From IMG/VR virus record IMGVR_UViG_3300044293_000370, positions 1 through 35,807 of that record: a stretch of DNA of 35,807 nt. One strand, 5' to 3'. How positions within the stretch are numbered: position 1 is the first letter of the stretch; each line of letters begins with the position of its first letter. The position numbers and the translations under genes were made by a program. The notes below the pieces were generated by a model that saw only the letters and a program-made list of their open reading frames with translations, ran no database searches and had not been told where the DNA came from. The DNA comes from a virus. Shown one piece after another: positions 1 through 35,807 of the stretch.

Positions 1-185
1 GTGTTGCTCCGGCGATCAGCAACCACCTTTGCAACCAATTCGCCACGCTTTTCGAGCATCCCGAACACCACGGCCTTTCCTTTGCCGCCCTTTCCGCCGC
101 GCCGATAACCGCCAACGAAGGTTTCATTGATCTGCACGGTCTTGAACGGGCCACCTAACGGACGATCACCGTCAACGTCAGCCAT
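1..185. repeat. Terminal direct repeat, copy 1 (matches 35623-35807)
   Basis: The first 185 bases are the same as the last 185 in the same orientation, except for one base (T at 128, C at 35750). The repeat lies inside the IS1595-family transposase gene. With the matching IS ends and target duplications on the far sides, this is best read as the overlap left when a circular molecule is opened inside the IS. Two slightly different IS copies in tandem phage genomes are the alternative. Confidence 0.9.
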
Positions 186-545
186 GTGTTCACGGATAAG
201 CGCGGCCATGCGCCACGCGGTCTTATATGTGACCCCAAGCTGGCGCTGCAATTCCTTGCCCGAAACGCCGTGCCGTGTGGTGGTGAACAGGTGGATGGCA
301 TAGAACCACAGTTGCATGGGGGTGCGGGTCTTTTCGAAGGGAGTGCCAACGGTCGGATGCAGGTGGTGGCCGCACCACTGGCAGGAATAGGCGCGCTCCG
401 CCTTGATGCGATACCAGTTCGAAGGGCGCTCGCATGACGGGCATGTGTAGCCCTGCCCAAAGCGCACTCTGAACAGGTGCGAGAGGCAGGTTTCGTCATC
501 CGGAAACATCCGAAAGAAGGCGGCGGTGGTGAGCGGTTTCGTCAT
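1..545 (-). CDS. IS1595-family transposase, N-terminal part (cut by window edge)
   Basis: This is the 5' part of a DDE-type transposase that would cut and insert the IS1595-family element around it. Reading leftward from ATG at 545, the frame stays open to the window edge (181 codons). The N-terminal half has two Cys pairs (CPSC and CQWC) typical of the zinc-ribbon of IS1595/ISXO2 transposases, then a helical region and the start of the catalytic core. The rest of the gene is at the other edge (35283-35807); joined through the 185-base overlap the protein would be 294 aa, normal for the family. In this copy the first catalytic Asp (residue 140, motif QIDET in the other copy) reads Asn (QINET) because of the single mismatch at base 128. 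If real, this copy would be inactive. Confidence 0.88.
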   Translation of the reverse strand, partial: MTKPLTTAAFFRMFPDDETCLSHLFRVRFGQGYTCPSCERPSNWYRIKAERAYSCQWCGHHLHPTVGTPFEKTRTPMQLWFYAIHLFTTTRHGVSGKELQRQLGVTYKTAWRMAALIREHMADVDGDRPLGGPFKTVQINETFVGGYRRGGKGGKGKAVVFGMLEKRGELVAKVVADRRSN

Positions 546-570
546 GCGAATTCAAATGCCTGACCGCTCT

Positions 571-594
571 ACGTATGTCAAGGGGATAAACCCC
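571..594 (-). repeat. IS terminal inverted repeat (transposase end)
   Basis: Read inward on the minus strand, the repeat begins GGGGTTTATCCCC and ends CATACGT. It matches the opposite end (33974-33997) at 23 of 24 positions. The single difference turns TTGGCA into TTGACA (576-581, minus strand), a consensus -35 box pointing into the transposase. This end therefore probably carries the transposase promoter, although no good -10 is visible 17 bases on. Confidence 0.88.
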
Positions 595-602
595 AAAGTT
601 TA
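595..602. repeat. 8-bp target site duplication AAAGTTTA (right copy)
   Basis: This octamer directly abuts the IS inverted repeat ending at 594. It is identical to the octamer abutting the other IS end at 33966-33973. An 8-bp duplication is usual for IS1595-family insertions. The two copies lie at opposite ends of the window, so they support one insertion into a circular molecule. Confidence 0.88.
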
Positions 603-685: not shown

Positions 686-735
686 CCTGATTTGTAATCA
701 GGGGGCCGGGGGTTCAAGTCCCTCAGCCGGCACCA
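686..735 (+). other. attP core: 3' half of tRNA-Thr(TGT), anticodon arm to CCA
   Basis: The stretch holds an anticodon arm (CCTGA, loop TTTGTAA, TCAGG; anticodon TGT at 693-695), a T arm with loop TTCAAGT, the acceptor strand AGCCGGC, and ACCA. The 5' half of the tRNA, expected to begin GCCGGCT, is absent: the preceding bases do not fold as a D arm. A tRNA 3' half beside a tyrosine integrase is the usual attP core that rebuilds the host tRNA gene on integration. No second copy is visible elsewhere in the window, which fits an excised, circular state. The stretch is not a functional tRNA gene here. Confidence 0.82.
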
Positions 736-762: not shown

Positions 763-1743
763 TTACGCAAACCGCTCGGCCAGCGCCCGCGCGACCCGCC
801 CGCGATCCACGTAGCGCATCCGAATCGCCGCGATCCTTTCGGCGCGCCAGCCCATCACCATCGCAATCTCCGTGTCGGAAAAGCCGACCGACATCAGCCT
901 CGTGGCAAATGTCCCCCGCAGGTCATGCACCTTACGGTCGAAGCCTGCTGGCCGCGCAGTTCTCCAGCTTGATTGCCACCCGTCCACTGTCCACGGCTCG
1001 CCTCTGGACGTGCGCAATATCGCGCCCTTGCCCGGCCCTGTCAGGAACCGGGCAAGGTCAGGGTGCAGTGGAATGATCGCCTCGCCGCCCGTCTTGGCGG
1101 TTGTGAGCGCGATGTAACCGGTCTGCACATCCTCCCATGCAAGTCGTAGCAAGTCCCCGATCCTCAGGCCTGTGAGCGAGCCAAGGGTAAGCACGCGGCG
1201 GATATGGCCGGGGCAGTCTTCGACCGCCTGCCAATGGTGCGCTTCCCATATCAGGTCTGCACGGTTGACGCGGTGTAGCTTCCCGATCTTGAGCGCCGGA
1301 TTGCGGGCGATCATCTCTCGGTCTTCGGCCCATGCCAGCACGGTTGCCAGCATCCCAACGCACCGATCTGCGGCGCGAGGCGTTGACGCCATTTCATCGC
1401 GCCACTTGATGATTTCGGGCCGAATTTTGGGAATGAGCGAAATGGGCACCCGCCCGAAACGGGCGCTAACCTGGTCGAGCCGCTGGCGATATTCGGCCTT
1501 AGTTTTGGCGGCTTTGGCTTCGAACTCGGGTGCGGCCCGGTATCTGTTGATTATGGCATCGAGATCGCCGCGCGATGACTTGCCGAGCGCAGCCTGTGCC
1601 TTTGCTATGAGACCCGGGGTTATGACGGGCCGCGCGCCGTCCTGCTGGTGGATAAGCGGCCCGCCTCTGCGGGCGTAAACATAGAAACGATCACCGCCCG
1701 CGCGCGGCTTTTTGACTATGTGCAGGCCCGATGTATGCGGCAA
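763..1743 (-). CDS. int: Tyrosine recombinase / phage integrase
   Basis: Integrates and excises the phage at the tRNA-Thr attachment site. The 326-aa protein has an N-terminal SAM-like core-binding part (about 60-150) and a C-terminal catalytic domain. The catalytic set is visible: R194 in TGLRIGDLL, K217 in TAKTGGEA, H273 and R276 in HDLRGT, W299 in MGWR, and nucleophile Y311 in RYVD. An in-frame stop lies just upstream, so the TTG at 1743 is the best start; GGGGAG precedes it by about 10 bases. The gene overlaps the upstream small gene by 53 bases, ends the leftward early operon, and reads toward attP 28 bases beyond its stop. Only the host and exact crossover point are uncertain. Confidence 0.95.
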   Translation of the reverse strand: MPHTSGLHIVKKPRAGGDRFYVYARRGGPLIHQQDGARPVITPGLIAKAQAALGKSSRGDLDAIINRYRAAPEFEAKAAKTKAEYRQRLDQVSARFGRVPISLIPKIRPEIIKWRDEMASTPRAADRCVGMLATVLAWAEDREMIARNPALKIGKLHRVNRADLIWEAHHWQAVEDCPGHIRRVLTLGSLTGLRIGDLLRLAWEDVQTGYIALTTAKTGGEAIIPLHPDLARFLTGPGKGAILRTSRGEPWTVDGWQSSWRTARPAGFDRKVHDLRGTFATRLMSVGFSDTEIAMVMGWRAERIAAIRMRYVDRGRVARALAERFA

Positions 1744-3087: not shown

Positions 3088-3236
3088 CACCGCCCCCTGA
3101 TCCGATCGAGCAGCGACCGGCGCTCGGGCTGCATGGGTTGAAGGGGGCCGTGGCGGTAACGGGCGCTCGCCGGGTCTTTCCATCGGGGTTGCGTCCAGCG
3201 GTCGGGCGCGCTGCTGCGGAAGGGGAGGGCGGTCAT
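3087..3236 (-). CDS. Hypothetical 49-aa basic protein
   Basis: This short Arg/Pro-rich product (begins MTALPFRSSAPDRWTQPRWK) fits exactly between two genes. Its ATG 3236 overlaps the stop of the pentapeptide gene (ATGA), and its stop touches the next ATG. The tight fit supports translation. There is no recognised motif; the basic composition may suggest nucleic-acid binding. Confidence 0.55.
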   Translation of the reverse strand: MTALPFRSSAPDRWTQPRWKDPASARYRHGPLQPMQPERRSLLDRIRGR

Positions 3237-4411
3237 GCGGACACCTGCACATCAAGACCCGTGAGCCGCGCGTATTCCAGCGCCCACTCCAGTGCCATTT
3301 TGCTGCGGAAGCCGCCCTCGTTAGCGTCACCGGGCAGCGTCCCCTTGCTGATCGGCGCAAACCACTGTTCGGCGGGCGATGATTCCTGATGCGGAATGCC
3401 AGAAGCCCCGCCGTTCTCCAAAGTGCCAACAAGACATGCGCACGCTCCTTCATAAGTCGAGCCGTTCACGTTGCCTTCGCGCAGGGAACGTATCAGGTGT
3501 GGAACTTCTGCATGACCCATTGCCAGGATCATGAAAAAGTCAGCCTTGATCGGGCGCAGGTCGACATGGCTCAGGTTGGCATGGCGCAGGATGGCATGGC
3601 TCAGGTGGGCATGGCTCAGGTTGGCATGGCGCAGGTTGACACCGCTCAGGTTGACACCGCTCAGGTCGGCATGGCTCAGGTTGGCATGGCGCAGGATGGC
3701 ATGGCTCAGGTTGACACCGCTCAGGTCGGCATCGCGCAGGTCGACATCGCTCAGGTAGGCACCGCTCAGGTTGACACCGCTCAGGTCGGCATGGCTCAGG
3801 TTGGCACCGCGCAGGTCGGCATCGCGCAGGTCGGCATCGCGCAGGTTGGCACCGCGCAGGTCGGCATCGCGCAGGTAGGCACCGCTCAGGTCGACATCGC
3901 TCAGGTCGGCATGGCTCAGGATGGCATGGCTCAGGTGGGCATGGCTCAGGTTGGCATGGCGCAGGTTGACACCGCTCAGGTTGACACCGCTCAGGTCGGC
4001 ATGGCTCAGGTTGGCATGGCGCAGGTTGACACCGCTCAGGTTGACACCGCTCAGGTCGGCATGGCTCAGGTTGGCATGGCGCAGGATGGCACCGCTCAGG
4101 TTGACACCGCTCAGGTCGGCATCGCGCAGGTCGACATCGCTCAGGTAGGCACCGCTCAGGTTGACACCGCTCAGGTCGGCATGGCTCAGGTTGGCACCGC
4201 GCAGGTTGGCACCGCGCAGGTCGGCATCGCGCAGGTAGGCACCGCTCAGGTCGACATCGCTCAGGAGGAAACCGTTGCGCTTTGCCCACATCACTACCAA
4301 GCCCAACTTGACGCTCTCTGGCATATCTGGCGTGACGCTGATTTCGGCGGTGAATTGCACTGCACCAGTCCTGCGGTTGCGGACTTCGTATTTCTCAATT
4401 GTTGGCGTCAT
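3233..4411 (-). CDS. Pentapeptide-repeat protein with C-terminal alpha/beta cap
   Basis: The 392-aa protein has an N-terminal part (1-47), about 48 tandem pentapeptides (48-288, pattern A/V-D/N-L-S/R-x, e.g. ADLSG VNLSG AYLRD) and a 104-aa C-terminal domain (GSTYEGACACLVGTLEN). The repeats should form one long right-handed quadrilateral beta helix. Qnr/MfpA members of this fold mimic DNA and bind gyrase; most phage members have unknown roles. A similar C-terminal cap is familiar to me from other phage pentapeptide proteins. A clear GGAGG precedes ATG 4411. The array is strikingly regular and contains a large internal duplication at DNA level. It lies in the lysogeny-side leftward operon, so a host-modulating role is possible but not shown. 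Confidence 0.92.
   Translation of the reverse strand: MTPTIEKYEVRNRRTGAVQFTAEISVTPDMPESVKLGLVVMWAKRNGFLLSDVDLSGAYLRDADLRGANLRGANLSHADLSGVNLSGAYLSDVDLRDADLSGVNLSGAILRHANLSHADLSGVNLSGVNLRHANLSHADLSGVNLSGVNLRHANLSHAHLSHAILSHADLSDVDLSGAYLRDADLRGANLRDADLRDADLRGANLSHADLSGVNLSGAYLSDVDLRDADLSGVNLSHAILRHANLSHADLSGVNLSGVNLRHANLSHAHLSHAILRHANLSHVDLRPIKADFFMILAMGHAEVPHLIRSLREGNVNGSTYEGACACLVGTLENGGASGIPHQESSPAEQWFAPISKGTLPGDANEGGFRSKMALEWALEYARLTGLDVQVSA
3547..4267. repeat. 15-bp tandem repeat array coding the pentapeptide solenoid
   Basis: About 48 units of a 15-bp motif (plus strand GCTCAGGTnGRCAYS and close variants) run head to tail. On top of this, longer blocks recur: 3601-3690 matches 3931-4020 (offset 330), 3721-3810 matches 4111-4200 (offset 390), and 3841-3900 matches 4201-4260 (offset 360). 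The changing offset shows gain or loss of whole units between two homologous halves. The codon-phase period keeps several other frames open too, producing spurious ORFs on both strands. Confidence 0.92.
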
Positions 4412-4609: not shown

Positions 4610-4922
4610 GCCACGATCGCCAAATCGTGATAGTCGGCGTCTGAACAGAATAAGATTGCTGCCGTAGCCTCTCCCGTAATAAGTCGCCCAATTCAATCGC
4701 GCGCGCCGTGATCTCTTCGGGCGTACTCGGAAATCGCGGATAATTAATAAGCCCAACAGCAACCCCCTTTTCATCACCGTTTGTAAATATATAGTGTATT
4801 TTACTTACGGTGACGCAAAGGCCGACGAGATCGCAGTAATTCTGGCAAGCAGATTTAGCCTCCTGATAATCACCAGCAATAAAAATGGTAACTGGATAGC
4901 TAGGGCTACTTCTCTCAATCAT
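4599..4922 (-). CDS. Hypothetical 107-aa protein
   Basis: The start is set by ATG 4922, which overlaps the upstream stop (ATGA) and has GGAG seven bases before it; a longer reading to 4949 ignores this. The protein begins MIERSSPSYPVTIFIAGDYQ and has a beta-alpha-beta feel, with cysteines at CQNYCDLVGLCV, then a helix (EEITARAIELGDLLRERL). This region uses more AT-rich codons than its neighbours (e.g. 4740-4860), hinting at separate acquisition. No family recognised. Confidence 0.7.
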   Translation of the reverse strand: MIERSSPSYPVTIFIAGDYQEAKSACQNYCDLVGLCVTVSKIHYIFTNGDEKGVAVGLINYPRFPSTPEEITARAIELGDLLRERLRQQSYSVQTPTITIWRSWREQ

Positions 4923-5764
4923 AGGGCTTCTCCGCACCAAGTCCCGCACTCGGCGTCCATGTCAGGGTCATTGTCGAAGGCCCCAGAAAACAAGTCGCCC
5001 TGACTGCGGCTTGCCTTTATTATCTCGGCGTAGCTATATTCGTAGCGAAATGTGCTCCCCCTCGCGGCTTCCATGTCCGCCCACCATTGCAATGTGCCGG
5101 GTGCCGTCCGCTCCACTTCGAGCAGCTTGGGACGGGCTTTCAGGAAGCAGCCATCGCAATTACCCTCAAAAGGCAGTAATTGCAGGTCGAAATCCTGCGC
5201 CGCCCAAAAAGTGCGCACATCTCGATTGGTAACGCCCGCATCGGACAGCGGGCACACTGTCTTCCATCGCTCCTTGCCGAGCTCATTACGGGCGAGCGAG
5301 CGAGATACCCGCGTCGGCTCATCCGCTCGCAGGCCAATCACGTTTAGCCAGTGATCGTAGCCCGCCGCCCGCATGAAATCGCGCATAACCTTGATCTTGA
5401 GTTCGTCGGTGCAGAACCGCATCACGGGATTCGGCAACATCTTCTTACAGGCCAATAGTCCCTCGAAGGGTTCGCCATCCGCCGCCGCGCTGTTAAATCC
5501 AACCTCTTCGAACCGCTCATGATGGGCACCCTTTCTCGCCCGCCATTCAAGCCAGCGCACGCGCACATTCCAGCGGGTCGCGCACTCATGCACAAACCGC
5601 AGCGTTTCCCTCCGCTCCTTGCCGGTGTTGGCAAAGGTGACATGGACGTCATCGGGCAGCACCCCTCCATGCGCTTGGAGGATGCGCCAGAGCATATAGG
5701 CACTGGTGCGACCGCCGCTAAAGCTGATGAGGGCCGGGCCAGAGATCAGGAATGGATTGCTCAC
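4919..5764 (-). CDS. Phage PAPS-reductase-like PP-loop protein
   Basis: This 281-aa member of the adenine-nucleotide alpha-hydrolase superfamily has a PP-loop SFSGGRTSA at about residues 14-22. The family activates sulfate or uses ATP to transfer sulfur. Four Cys are placed as possible metal ligands: C106 (LLACKKML), C118 (RFCTDELK) and C203/C206 (NCDGC). Phage homologues are often annotated as phosphoadenosine phosphosulfate reductase, but a true sulfate-assimilation role is doubtful here. Fe-S or DndC-like thiolation chemistry is an alternative. GTG 5764 is chosen because it overlaps the upstream stop (GTGA), has GGAG eight bases before it, and gives a start similar to phage homologues I recall. 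ATG 5794 would add ten residues. Confidence 0.85.
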   Translation of the reverse strand: MSNPFLISGPALISFSGGRTSAYMLWRILQAHGGVLPDDVHVTFANTGKERRETLRFVHECATRWNVRVRWLEWRARKGAHHERFEEVGFNSAAADGEPFEGLLACKKMLPNPVMRFCTDELKIKVMRDFMRAAGYDHWLNVIGLRADEPTRVSRSLARNELGKERWKTVCPLSDAGVTNRDVRTFWAAQDFDLQLLPFEGNCDGCFLKARPKLLEVERTAPGTLQWWADMEAARGSTFRYEYSYAEIIKASRSQGDLFSGAFDNDPDMDAECGTWCGEAL

Positions 5765-5901
5765 CCGGACACACTCCAGGCTAACAGTGACCATACGCCG
5801 ATAACTCCGACGATCAGCATCCCCCCGGGCACAGCGCGCAGGATCACAAGCGCGTCGGACAGGGTGACGCGGGGGCGTGGGGGGCGATAGGCGCGGATCA
5901 T
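5761..5901 (-). CDS. 46-aa single-span membrane protein
   Basis: Starts MIRAYRPPRPRVTLSDALVI with a basic N-terminus and then a hydrophobic segment (about 27-43, GGMLIVGVIGVWSLLAW), likely N-in membrane topology. ATG 5901 overlaps the HNH gene's stop and its own stop overlaps the next GTG, so it is coupled on both sides. Function unknown. Confidence 0.65.
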   Translation of the reverse strand: MIRAYRPPRPRVTLSDALVILRAVPGGMLIVGVIGVWSLLAWSVSG

Positions 5902-32645: not shown

Positions 32646-33800
32646 ATGGCTAATCCAGGCTTGTCGCAAGATGAGATGCTAGAAGCCCTACGCCTCGTCA
32701 GCGAGTATGGCAGCATAACCGAAGCCGCGCGGCACATCGGGATGCGCAGGGAAACCCTTCAAGGGCGGGTCAACAAGGCGAGGGATGCTATTGCACGGGG
32801 CGCGCTTGATGTGGACCTCGCTACCCGCGTGCCCGAAGGTCACAAGGTCAAAGGTGTTTCGACGCTCTATGACGCCGATGGCGGGGTTAGGGCGCAATGG
32901 GTCAAAACGGACATTGACACACAAAGGGTTGAACAAGCCTTTGCCAGCGCGATCACCGACCTTTGCGACCGCATCCCGCCTGTGCCTGCGATCCCGCCGC
33001 CAGCTTCTTTCGATACCGAACTGTTGAACGTCATTCCAATGGGCGATCCCCATTTTGGCCTACGCACATGGAAACCCGAGACCGGTGAGGACTTCGATCT
33101 AGGCAAGGCAGAGGAAGTGACATTTGGTGCGGTTGACAAACTAGTTTCCCGCGCACCGCCTGCCGGTGTTGGCTTGCTTCTCAATCTAGGCGACTACTTC
33201 CACGCCGACGATAGCAGCAACCGAACGCCGCGCAGCGGGCACGAGCTTGACGTTGACGGACGATTCCAAAAGATCGCTAGCGTCGGCTTCAGAGCGATGT
33301 TGCGCTGTATCGAGCGGATGCTCGAAACGCACGAACGGGTGATCGTTCGCAACAACCCCGGCAACCACGACCCGCACCAGGCGCTGATGCTTAACATTGC
33401 CGTGGGTGCGCGCTTCCACGACAACCCTCGCGTATATGTCAATCCCTCGCCGTGCAGCTTCTACTACTATCGCTTCGGAAAGGTGCTGATCGGCTCGACG
33501 CATGGCGATGGGGCAAAGATGGCCGACTTGCCGCTCATCATGGCGGCTGACGTTCCGCAGGAATGGGCGGCGGCTGAGTTTCGCGTGTGGCATGTGGGGC
33601 ACTTCCACCACAACCAGCGACTAGGTCAAAAAGACCTAACTGGCTGCGAAGTCGAGACGCACCGAACGCTTGCCGCTGGCGACGCGTGGCACCGTCATCA
33701 AGGCTACCGCGCTTTGCGGGACATGAAGGTCATCAGCTATCACCGCGAATATGGCGAGGACTTGCGCATCCGTTGTGGTGTCGAAAGGCTTGCTGCATGA
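32646..33800 (+). CDS. HTH-containing calcineurin-like phosphoesterase
   Basis: The 384-aa protein has an N-terminal HTH-like segment (about 18-45, SEYGSITEAARHIGMRRETL). Its metallophosphoesterase core has the five classic motifs: GDPHFG (133-138), LGDYFH (181-186), GNHDP (239-243), THGDG (285-289) and GHFHHN (318-323). These coordinate two metal ions. Similar HTH-MPE proteins occur in other phage genomes. The substrate is unknown: nucleic-acid ends, a nucleotide signal or a protein phosphate are possible. It sits at the end of the late region, after lysis genes and before the IS. AGGTGA precedes ATG 32646; TTG 32643 is an alternative. Confidence 0.88.
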   Translation: MANPGLSQDEMLEALRLVSEYGSITEAARHIGMRRETLQGRVNKARDAIARGALDVDLATRVPEGHKVKGVSTLYDADGGVRAQWVKTDIDTQRVEQAFASAITDLCDRIPPVPAIPPPASFDTELLNVIPMGDPHFGLRTWKPETGEDFDLGKAEEVTFGAVDKLVSRAPPAGVGLLLNLGDYFHADDSSNRTPRSGHELDVDGRFQKIASVGFRAMLRCIERMLETHERVIVRNNPGNHDPHQALMLNIAVGARFHDNPRVYVNPSPCSFYYYRFGKVLIGSTHGDGAKMADLPLIMAADVPQEWAAAEFRVWHVGHFHHNQRLGQKDLTGCEVETHRTLAAGDAWHRHQGYRALRDMKVISYHREYGEDLRIRCGVERLAA

Positions 33801-34003
33801 CTGCTGCCGAAGCCCTCCGCCGCGCCGCTGATGCGGTCAATGATTGCGCGATAGGCGAGCGCAAGGAACGCGTGATCCGGCTTCTCGCCCTGCACGTTAT
33901 CCGTGTGTGCGGGGAAGGCGAGAACGCCGAGGAAGCGCGGCTGTTGTGCGAGTTGCTGGGGGAGAAAAGTTTAGGGGTTTATCCCCTTGGCATACGTGAT
34001 TGA
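33797..34003 (+). CDS. Small helical protein with IS-altered C-terminus
   Basis: ATG 33797 overlaps the phosphoesterase stop (ATGA). The 68-aa product begins MTAAEALRRAADAVNDCAIG and is a two-helix acidic protein (EENAEEARLLCELLGEK-like tail). The IS inserted at 33974: removing it and one octamer makes the frame read HDGV and stop after GEKSL. As found, the last nine residues (GVYPLGIRD) come from the IS inverted repeat. So the natural protein was 63 aa. Function unknown. Confidence 0.72.
   Translation: MTAAEALRRAADAVNDCAIGERKERVIRLLALHVIRVCGEGENAEEARLLCELLGEKSLGVYPLGIRD
33966..33973. repeat. 8-bp target site duplication AAAGTTTA (left copy)
   Basis: This octamer directly abuts the left IS end and is identical to 595-602. 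Together the two copies show one insertion event across the window edges. Confidence 0.88.
33974..33997 (+). repeat. IS terminal inverted repeat (passenger end)
   Basis: Begins GGGGTTTATCCCC and ends CATACGT, matching the other end (571-594, opposite strand) at 23 of 24 bases. It also supplies codons to the interrupted small gene. Confidence 0.88.
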
Positions 34004-34028
34004 CTCAAGCTGTTGAGTTCGCATAGCA
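34000..34028 (+). promoter_or_regulatory. Possible promoter of the IS passenger gene
   Basis: TTGACT (34000-34005), a 17-base spacer, then ATAGCA (34023-34028), with a modest -10. It lies just inside the inverted repeat and 22 bases before the passenger gene's ATG, so the element probably carries its own promoter. Confidence 0.45.
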
Positions 34029-34050
34029 TCCTTGCGTATTGGAGGGGCGC

Positions 34051-34941
34051 ATGGACCAATCAGCACCTTTAAGTCTCTATCTGGACCTTGAGAAAGGGCA
34101 CATTGCTGACATTGAGGTTGTGTCACGGGCTGCTATTGCTTGGTCACAGGCAGTCAAAGAGCTGGCTTATATCGCCGATCCGTCAATCGAGGTTCGCGTC
34201 GAGTTGTTAAATGGCACCGAAGGCAGTCTAAGTCTTAACTCGATAGTGAGGGTGATAAAGCAAACTGCTGCAAATAACCCAAAGCTGACTACGGTTATAA
34301 TCACTTGCTTGACTTGGTTCGCACTTGAAACAAGCTCCTACACCTTGGCGAAGATATACGATTACCTACTAAGCGATGATGCTCCCGCCGAAGCTCGCAG
34401 CCTGTCCGACAGCGAGCGAACCGCTGTCGCTGAAGAGGTTGTGCGGATCGTTCGAGAGCAGACCGCGCGACAAGAGCGTGAGGCCATTTTCCGTGAGCTA
34501 GCACGTGACCCAAAAATTCGAGGTGTCGGCGTCACCACTCGGCCAGGCCAGCGACCGGCAATTGTTGTGCCGCGCTCCGAGTTTCAGGCGCGCTCTGGCC
34601 AAACGGCCAAGATAGACATTCAGGATGCCAAGCGTCGAAGCACGACAGAGATCGCGCAAGTGACCCTCGTTAGCCCTATCTTGAAGGATGCTGAGCGGCG
34701 ATGGCGTTTCCAGATTGGTGCCCTGCCAGAATTTGGGGCGACCATGAAGGACCACGAATTTCTTGAGGGCGTGGCGAAGGGTGATATCTCCATCCCGCTG
34801 CGCATCGGCATCGAGATGGAAGTCGAGCTCGAAACCAAAGAAGAGTTAGAGGATCAGCTCTGGGTGGTGAAAGAGCGCAACGTCCTGCGGGTTCTATCCC
34901 CCAAACGAGCCAGACATGACTTATTCGCCCCGCAACGCTAG
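34051..34941 (+). CDS. IS passenger gene, unknown 296-aa protein
   Basis: GGAGG lies six bases before ATG 34051. The N-terminal 100 residues form an alpha/beta domain (LSLYLDLEKGHIADIEVVSR and VELLNGTEGSLSLNSIVRVI). A hydrophobic segment (about 78-96, TVIITCLTWFALETSSYTLA) could be a membrane span. Then comes a charged helix (SERTAVAEEVVRIVREQTAR) and a beta-rich C-terminal domain ending LETKEELEDQLWVVKERNVL. No enzyme motif is seen. It is bounded by the IS repeats, so it moves with the transposase. The function could be a host-fitness, immunity or regulation cargo; I do not recognise the family. It shares 21 bases convergently with the small membrane gene. Confidence 0.85.
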   Translation: MDQSAPLSLYLDLEKGHIADIEVVSRAAIAWSQAVKELAYIADPSIEVRVELLNGTEGSLSLNSIVRVIKQTAANNPKLTTVIITCLTWFALETSSYTLAKIYDYLLSDDAPAEARSLSDSERTAVAEEVVRIVREQTARQEREAIFRELARDPKIRGVGVTTRPGQRPAIVVPRSEFQARSGQTAKIDIQDAKRRSTTEIAQVTLVSPILKDAERRWRFQIGALPEFGATMKDHEFLEGVAKGDISIPLRIGIEMEVELETKEELEDQLWVVKERNVLRVLSPKRARHDLFAPQR

Positions 34942-35097
34942 GTAAGCAAAAGCGCATATCGACGCAAATAGGATAATCGCACCGACAGACCATGCAGCCC
35001 CGACGTCCAACTCCTTCATAGCCGAAAGGCCCAACAATACCGCGAGGGCGGTAAGGGCTACCTGCCCCTTTACGGATAATTTTTGGCGCTTCATCAT
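34921..35097 (-). CDS. IS passenger gene, small two-span membrane protein
   Basis: Reads leftward to a TAA inside the end of the 34051 gene. The 58-aa core (MMKRQKLSVKGQVALTALAV...) has two hydrophobic segments (GQVALTALAVLLGLSAM and GAIILFASICAFAYLAL) joined by a short acidic loop, and a basic N-terminus. The start is uncertain: ATG 35097 or 35094, or upstream ATG 35145 or 35193; none has a strong ribosome site. It may act with the larger passenger protein, which also has a possible membrane segment. Confidence 0.6.
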   Translation of the reverse strand: MMKRQKLSVKGQVALTALAVLLGLSAMKELDVGAAWSVGAIILFASICAFAYLALRGE

Positions 35098-35282
35098 CCT
35101 GCGTCGATGATGCTTTGGCGGCAGACTGCGTAAAACATGAGTCATATCAAACACTTGAATCACAAGGGATTTTGCGGTGTCAGAGAGTAACATGACGCTT
35201 CGAGAAGCGCGAGCGAAAAAAAATATCTCAGGATTTGTCCGGTGCCACGAAGGCGAGATCGGTGACGCAGACGCGTTCGATC

Positions 35283-35807
35283 TCACTCTGCGGGCAATGG
35301 CCGGAACGTCGAAAGAAGCTCCGGCAGCATCGTCTCCGGACGGTTCCGGCGATTGAAGCGATACTCGAATTCCTTGACGTAGCGGGCAAGGTGTTTGGGG
35401 CTGACGCTGGTGTGCGTCCCGCCGATTGACCGCTTCAAGTGGCTCCAAAAGCTTTCGATGGCATTGACGGTCACGCCTTCATCCGAGACCCATTCTTCGC
35501 GTCTGTGGTTCACTTGCTTGTGCCAATAGCCGTTGTTTTCGCCAAGCTCGCCGTAGCTCGACAGTTCGTCCGTATGGATTTCGCTGTAAGGGCGCACGTT
35601 CTTCAAAATCTCTGGCACCAGCGTGTTGCTCCGGCGATCAGCAACCACCTTTGCAACCAATTCGCCACGCTTTTCGAGCATCCCGAACACCACGGCCTTT
35701 CCTTTGCCGCCCTTTCCGCCGCGCCGATAACCGCCAACGAAGGTTTCATCGATCTGCACGGTCTTGAACGGGCCACCTAACGGACGATCACCGTCAACGT
35801 CAGCCAT
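35283..35807 (-). CDS. IS1595-family transposase, C-terminal part (cut by window edge)
   Basis: This 174-codon piece starts within the gene at the window edge and ends at TGA 35283. It holds the catalytic core: first Asp in QIDETFVGG (140 in joined numbering), glycine/lysine-rich loop GGYRRGGKGGKGKAVVFGML, second Asp in EIHTDELSSY (200), and NAIESFWSHLKRSI with the last acidic residue and Lys (235-245). This copy keeps the first Asp, so it would be active if joined to an intact 5' part. Confidence 0.93.
   Translation of the reverse strand: MADVDGDRPLGGPFKTVQIDETFVGGYRRGGKGGKGKAVVFGMLEKRGELVAKVVADRRSNTLVPEILKNVRPYSEIHTDELSSYGELGENNGYWHKQVNHRREEWVSDEGVTVNAIESFWSHLKRSIGGTHTSVSPKHLARYVKEFEYRFNRRNRPETMLPELLSTFRPLPAE
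35623..35807. repeat. Terminal direct repeat, copy 2
   Basis: Matches bases 1-185 with one mismatch (C at 35750 against T at 128). See the first copy for interpretation. Confidence 0.9.

Follow-up and report, generated by a model that had tools for sequence, protein, structure and literature searches.

Some insertion sequences (ISs) are known to carry passenger genes; for these transporter ISs (tISs), the IS1595 family is the classic example, according to the part of PMC3129680 that cites Siguier, Gagnevin and Chandler (2009). The element described here resembles a tIS of this family, with its DDE_Tnp_IS1595 transposase, terminal inverted repeats (IRs) of the family type, 8-bp target-site duplication (TSD) and passengers unrelated to transposition. 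It differs in that a whole subgroup is concerned, in which every bounded member has a passenger and near-identical transposases are found with unrelated passengers. The larger passenger gene encodes a member of LAPAL_fam (NF053583/phrog_3243). Within this family, it belongs to a divergent clade marked by a convergent gene for a two-span membrane protein, which distant members lack. The same protein matches the PADLOC model PDC-S42, as do distant LAPAL passengers; however, the PDC-S42 entry consists of a single gene, whereas the clade studied here always has a second one. Phage-defence candidates (PDCs) are proposed through “guilt by embedding” and are mostly unvalidated (PMC12988326). Finally, temperate phages have morons, such as ORF19 of Lactobacillus phage A2, in which a homologous protein is encoded beside integrase or lysis genes. 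By contrast, the present pair was brought into a phage by an IS and lies between a late gene and an attP-like site.

In the literature searched, with Siguier 2009 and ISfinder outside it, no description was found of the LAPAL and two-span pair or of a freely exchanged passenger slot, and neither PDC-S42 nor the LAPAL motif is named. The transporter IS and the LAPAL family are already known, and the pair and the swapped slot appear to be new as far as these searches reach.

A transporter element in a probably circular podophage genome

The window, meaning the whole stretch of DNA analysed, is an entire virus record of 35,807 bases. It is the genome of a temperate podophage, probably circular, and its main features are listed in Table 1. 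The two ends of the record overlap, with 184 of 185 bases identical; the lone mismatch, T at 128 against C at 35750, could come from a second IS copy or from strain variation. The element spans both record ends, running from 33974 to 35807 and continuing at 186–594, with a joined length of 2243 bp. Across this join, the two transposase halves form an uninterrupted frame of 294 amino acids containing a zinc ribbon (CPSC...CQWC) and the DDE domain, and the transposase passes the NF033547 cut-off of 75 bits. The two IRs, of a type also present in 56 relatives, are paired with a TSD whose copies agree at 8 of 8 positions, which is far beyond chance.

Table 1. Features of the element and of the neighbouring phage genome, with positions in the window
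Feature	Position	Strand	Basis or remark
Small phage gene, with the element inserted close to its 3' end	33797..34003	+	native stop at 615-617
Target-site duplication AAAGTTTA, first copy	33966..33973
IS1595-family element, right-hand part (cargo genes and 3' part of transposase)	33974..35807		IR and TSD; DDE_Tnp_IS1595 134 bits
Terminal inverted repeat GGGGTTTATCCCCTTGGCATACGT	33974..33997	+
296-aa LAPAL_fam protein	34051..34941	+	ribosome-binding site GGAGGGG just upstream
58-aa two-span membrane protein	34921..35097	-	convergent with LAPAL gene, 21-base overlap
IS1595 transposase, C-terminal part (DDE domain)	35283..35807	-	PF12762 4e-39, 134 bits; NF033547 138 bits
IS1595-family element, remainder (second end, with 5' part of transposase)	1..594		1-185 repeats 35623-35807
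IS1595 transposase, N-terminal part	1..545	-	zinc ribbon CxxC...CxxC
Terminal inverted repeat GGGGTTTATCCCCTTGACATACGT	571..594	-	23/24 identical to other end
Target-site duplication AAAGTTTA, second copy	595..602
tRNA 3' end	686-735		adjoins integrase; anticodon loop TTTGTAA
Integrase	763-1743		followed further along the record by repressor, recombination and replication genes, terminase, portal, capsid, connector and endolysin

An earlier note on this DNA had described a cargo of two convergent, overlapping genes between IS1595-type IRs, which moves with the IS and has entered a phage. Each part of this description is borne out. Both open reading frames (ORFs) are present, the IRs exist, though at opposite ends of the record, and IRs and TSD enclose a complete unit. 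When the flanks are fused into an empty site, with one TSD copy dropped, the phage gene that starts at 33797 regains a natural ending, ...GEKSLHDGV-stop; therefore, the IS struck the last codons of this gene. A similar gene stands uninterrupted at the corresponding place of a related phage contig (L004, 6119–6307). The same note had taken both cargo genes to be oriented independently of the transposase, which is true of the 296-aa gene, opposed to it, and not of the small ORF, which runs in the same direction. The single promoter-like site seen, at 34000–34029, is no better than chance. The locus is a “transporter” IS1595 element with passengers inserted in the phage genome, and its anatomy as given here can be regarded as practically certain.

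A linear prophage lying between two IS copies was considered and is disfavoured. The matching 8-bp TSD occurs on both inner flanks and therefore points to one insertion into a circular molecule, and the tRNA at the attP-like site is incomplete. This partial tRNA is, from our own reading of its anticodon loop, probably tRNA-Thr. ARAGORN did not find a complete tRNA. Since only the 3' end is present, the site looks like the attP of an unintegrated circular genome. Two further genes of this genome are recorded here. A 392-aa ORF at 3233–4411 (minus strand) has many strong, repeated PHROG matches to families of unknown function, which are possibly driven by composition, and an accessory gene of the phosphoadenosine phosphosulfate reductase type is found at 4919–5794 (minus strand).

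The LAPAL protein and its two-span partner

The larger cargo protein had been described as belonging to no recognised family, which does not hold. It reaches NCBIfam NF053583 (LAPAL_fam) with 65.5 bits against a curated cut-off of 60 bits, over residues 15–283 of 296, and it matches phrog_3243 (4e-10). The PDC-S42 model matches its C-terminal half (8e-11) and nearly its full length (5e-9), as judged by E-value. No Pfam match and no enzymatic motif were found in it. Single-sequence searches of phages, plasmids, viral contigs and genome contigs with this protein gave no homologue, and the LAPAL protein of another copy (L064) had no match in viral contigs; LAPAL relatives surfaced first via the transposase and then in profile searches of genomes.

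The AlphaFold (AF2) model of the protein has a pLDDT of 84 and predicts an N-terminal alpha/beta domain, hydrophobic helices at about 77–107 and a C-terminal OB-fold-like domain at about 193–290. Residues 193–290 resemble OB folds, with the best VIA-align hit to Rim1 SSB (Z 7.9, rmsd 2.8, 82 aligned residues); at a Z under 8, this predicted resemblance may merely reflect a common arrangement. The N-terminal 175 residues combine a beta-alpha-beta-beta layout with the hydrophobic helices (model pTM 0.83). No convincing structural relative of this part was found, and Foldseek found no PDB hit below 1e-3, whether the full protein or just the N-terminal part was compared. Likenesses of LAPAL to adenylyl cyclase, M16 peptidases and ribosomal S6 were weak and were taken as a common beta-alpha-beta layout. 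The transmembrane span at 79–96 is only putative because this stretch is just moderately hydrophobic in the window copy.

The genes had been proposed to form a pair, and comparison supports this. A two-span ORF of 57–82 amino acids, convergent with the LAPAL gene and overlapping its 3' end, accompanies 15 of 15 intact close homologues. Thirteen of these were flagged automatically, L162 was added from its ORF list, and the window copy was assessed manually, as its longest small-ORF form exceeds the length filter; an in-frame ATG upstream, at 35145, allows an alternative form of 74 amino acids. In a further copy (L078), the small ORF is intact beside a frameshifted LAPAL gene. Such a partner is found at none of nine distant LAPAL genes and, as a control, at none of 66 other passengers of the same IS group. 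With the overlap left out, the dN/dS of the small ORF is 0.11 (L048/L134) and 0.28 (L149/L150). Judged by these substitution ratios, the small ORF is under purifying selection and for this reason is taken to be a gene.

Nine copies of the pair lie inside the IS1595 group of the window element (the window, L039, L048, L064, L075, L078 with its frameshifted LAPAL gene, L080, L098 and L138); L138 is counted by its adjacent transposase rather than by IRs and TSD. Another pair (L151, 5377–8545) belongs to a different IS1595 group, with a transposase 29% identical, IRs matching at 24 of 24 positions and the TSD GATATTTG. Its LAPAL gene is on the opposite side of the transposase compared with the window group. 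Because of the distant transposase and this changed side, it is probably an independent capture. The earlier note had asked whether homologues are always located between IS1595 repeats, and they are not: for six intact pairs (L134, L135, L148, L149, L150 and L162), neither an IS1595 transposase nor paired IRs were detected in the vicinity. At least five of them are in phages or prophages. By our own ORF reading, four (L134, L148, L149 and L150) are surrounded by phage-type genes for packaging, lysis and tail and are taken as prophages; L162 is in a phage contig, and the context of L135 is ambiguous.

Distant LAPAL genes are also found in the integrase region of phages. The gene adjoins the integrase directly in Bifidobacterium phage PMBT6 and in Lactobacillus phage A2, where ORF19 stands between lysin and integrase. 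In Listeria phage vB_LmoS_188, it has the integrase on one side and, on the other, a gene whose annotation reads “putative superinfection immunity protein”; further examples come from Bifidobacterium phage Bbif-1 and a Vibrio tailless phage. Based on the copies in phages and prophages and on the distant genes near integrases, we infer that the pair is an accessory module of the lysogeny region of temperate phages that was captured by IS1595 elements. It is rare: one of 385 sampled genomes of the class has it, namely the genome used as centre, and in two orders, it occurs in 7 of 396 and 10 of 292 genomes, with distant matches and centres included. A LAPAL relative at 4357–5214 of L127, a plasmid-like contig, is apparently a decayed copy near relaxase, antirestriction and IS5-like genes.

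Passenger exchange in the IS1595 group

A set of 89 relatives was collected, most of them at 42–81% transposase identity. Elements were considered fully bounded with at least 18 of 24 matching IR positions and at least 7 of 8 in the TSD; 56 of the 89 qualify, and the TSD is perfect in 55. These bounded elements are 1.2–2.9 kb long, and all of them have 0.4–2.0 kb past the transposase. A passenger is present in every one (56/56), none being compact, and 54 have their main passenger in convergent orientation with the transposase. The passengers sort into 34 sequence clusters, that is, unrelated families. On a transposase tree of 64 rows, the passenger labels need 20 changes, and shuffled labels need 20.9; co-inheritance of passenger and transposase is thus not detectable.

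In close pairs of elements, DNA identity extends from the left end to about 10–110 bp past the transposase stop, then vanishes and resumes only in the last 24–30 bp, at the right end. One pair, L058 and L061, is 92% identical across 1043 bp including the transposase, and the passengers are unrelated; this is a recent passenger swap. Such a swap may have taken place by recombination at the transposase together with the use of a new right end. In the proposed course of events, a constant module, made of the left end, the transposase and about 10–110 bp beyond it, would be repeatedly re-paired with unrelated, mostly uncharacterised genes, which would then be closed by the 24–30-bp right end.

Most passengers match no family. 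The exceptions are PDC-S42/LAPAL, M78 (ImmA-like) peptidases and DUF7946/DUF7947. PDC-S42 is matched by 5 of 72 panel passengers, with the best value of 6e-117 among distant LAPAL passengers. One passenger cluster recurs in L057, L079, L086 and L104, and its L057 member contains an ImmA-like M78 peptidase domain; the M78 passengers of the panel match several PADLOC defence-protein models. The passengers of L041, L045 and L072 contain DUF7946 and DUF7947 (shown for L045); they are of LAPAL-like size and unrelated to LAPAL by profile comparison. Passenger clusters 1, 2 and 5 were tried as remote LAPAL relatives, and HHalign gave none, while the L082/L060 pair showed a weak C-terminal hint only. 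It is proposed, tentatively, that this IS1595 subgroup might be a general cassette-exchange vehicle in Alphaproteobacteria whose passengers are untapped phage-conflict modules, the LAPAL pair among them.

What the pair may do

There is roughly an even chance that the pair is a membrane-associated anti-phage or superinfection module. As a lysogeny-region module of temperate phages picked up by an IS, it would protect the carrying cell from other phages. The LAPAL protein, with its predicted alpha/beta domain, hydrophobic helices and OB-fold-like domain, would sense or bind a product of infection. The two-span protein would be its membrane partner, either as an effector, which would block the membrane or make it permeable, or as an anchor that also controls LAPAL. 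With their 3' ends in convergent overlap, either gene would impede the other when heavily transcribed, so that their levels may be set against each other.

The PDC-S42 match favours this anti-phage reading, as do the location in the lysogeny region, including the Listeria phage neighbour annotated for superinfection immunity, and the pairs without IS1595 near lysis or packaging genes in the four prophages and the phage contig. The rapid passenger turnover in the IS group also agrees with it, fast turnover being typical of conflict genes. However, PDC-S42 is a still unproven candidate, LAPAL bears the NCBIfam label “putative phage structural protein”, and most other passengers of the IS group have no match among defence models. 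The lack of an enzymatic motif and the middling fold matches also count against it. In addition, two other PADLOC candidates had no activity in one native host (PMC12409345).

It is possible, though improbable, that LAPAL or the small protein is toxic and is neutralised by its partner, in which case the IS would be an addiction element kept in the replicon. The strict co-occurrence of a larger protein with a small membrane partner and the mobile location would fit. However, distant LAPAL genes do without the partner, and the two genes are convergent with a 3' overlap in all intact homologues, with no co-directional operon; this gene order disfavours a standard toxin-antitoxin operon. The copy in L078, with its frameshifted LAPAL gene, speaks against the small protein as the toxin and is still compatible with it as the antidote.

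It is likewise unlikely that the pair is a lysogenic-conversion or host-fitness module outside phage conflict, for example in envelope modification or stress sensing, to the benefit of the lysogen. Such a role would be consistent with the lysogeny-region location, the membrane partner and the lack of an enzymatic domain, but the PDC-S42 match and the capture by IS elements with quick passenger turnover argue against it. Very improbable is a role of the passengers, including the LAPAL pair, in transposition itself, such as target choice or copy control: the presence of a passenger in all 56 TSD-bounded members would agree with this, but the passengers form 34 unrelated families with no association with the transposase tree, and the pair is also found without IS1595. 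The least credible reading, suggested by the NCBIfam name and the cut-off reached, gives LAPAL proteins a structural role in phages, since the phage homologues examined adjoin integrase or lysis genes, not head or tail modules, and many copies are on IS1595 elements in bacterial chromosomes, where phage genes are not needed.

What began as a hunch about a single IS has thus become a well-defined module of two genes, in which the partner can be tested and the limits of the element are clear. The findings also point to a compact class of mobile elements in which a passenger is always present and is evidently exchanged. Should these passengers be conflict genes, the slot downstream in the IS1595 subgroup would be a direct catalogue of new candidate defence systems, most of them without a family match. 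The insertion also shows a route by which phages can acquire lysogeny-type accessory genes without recombination between phages.
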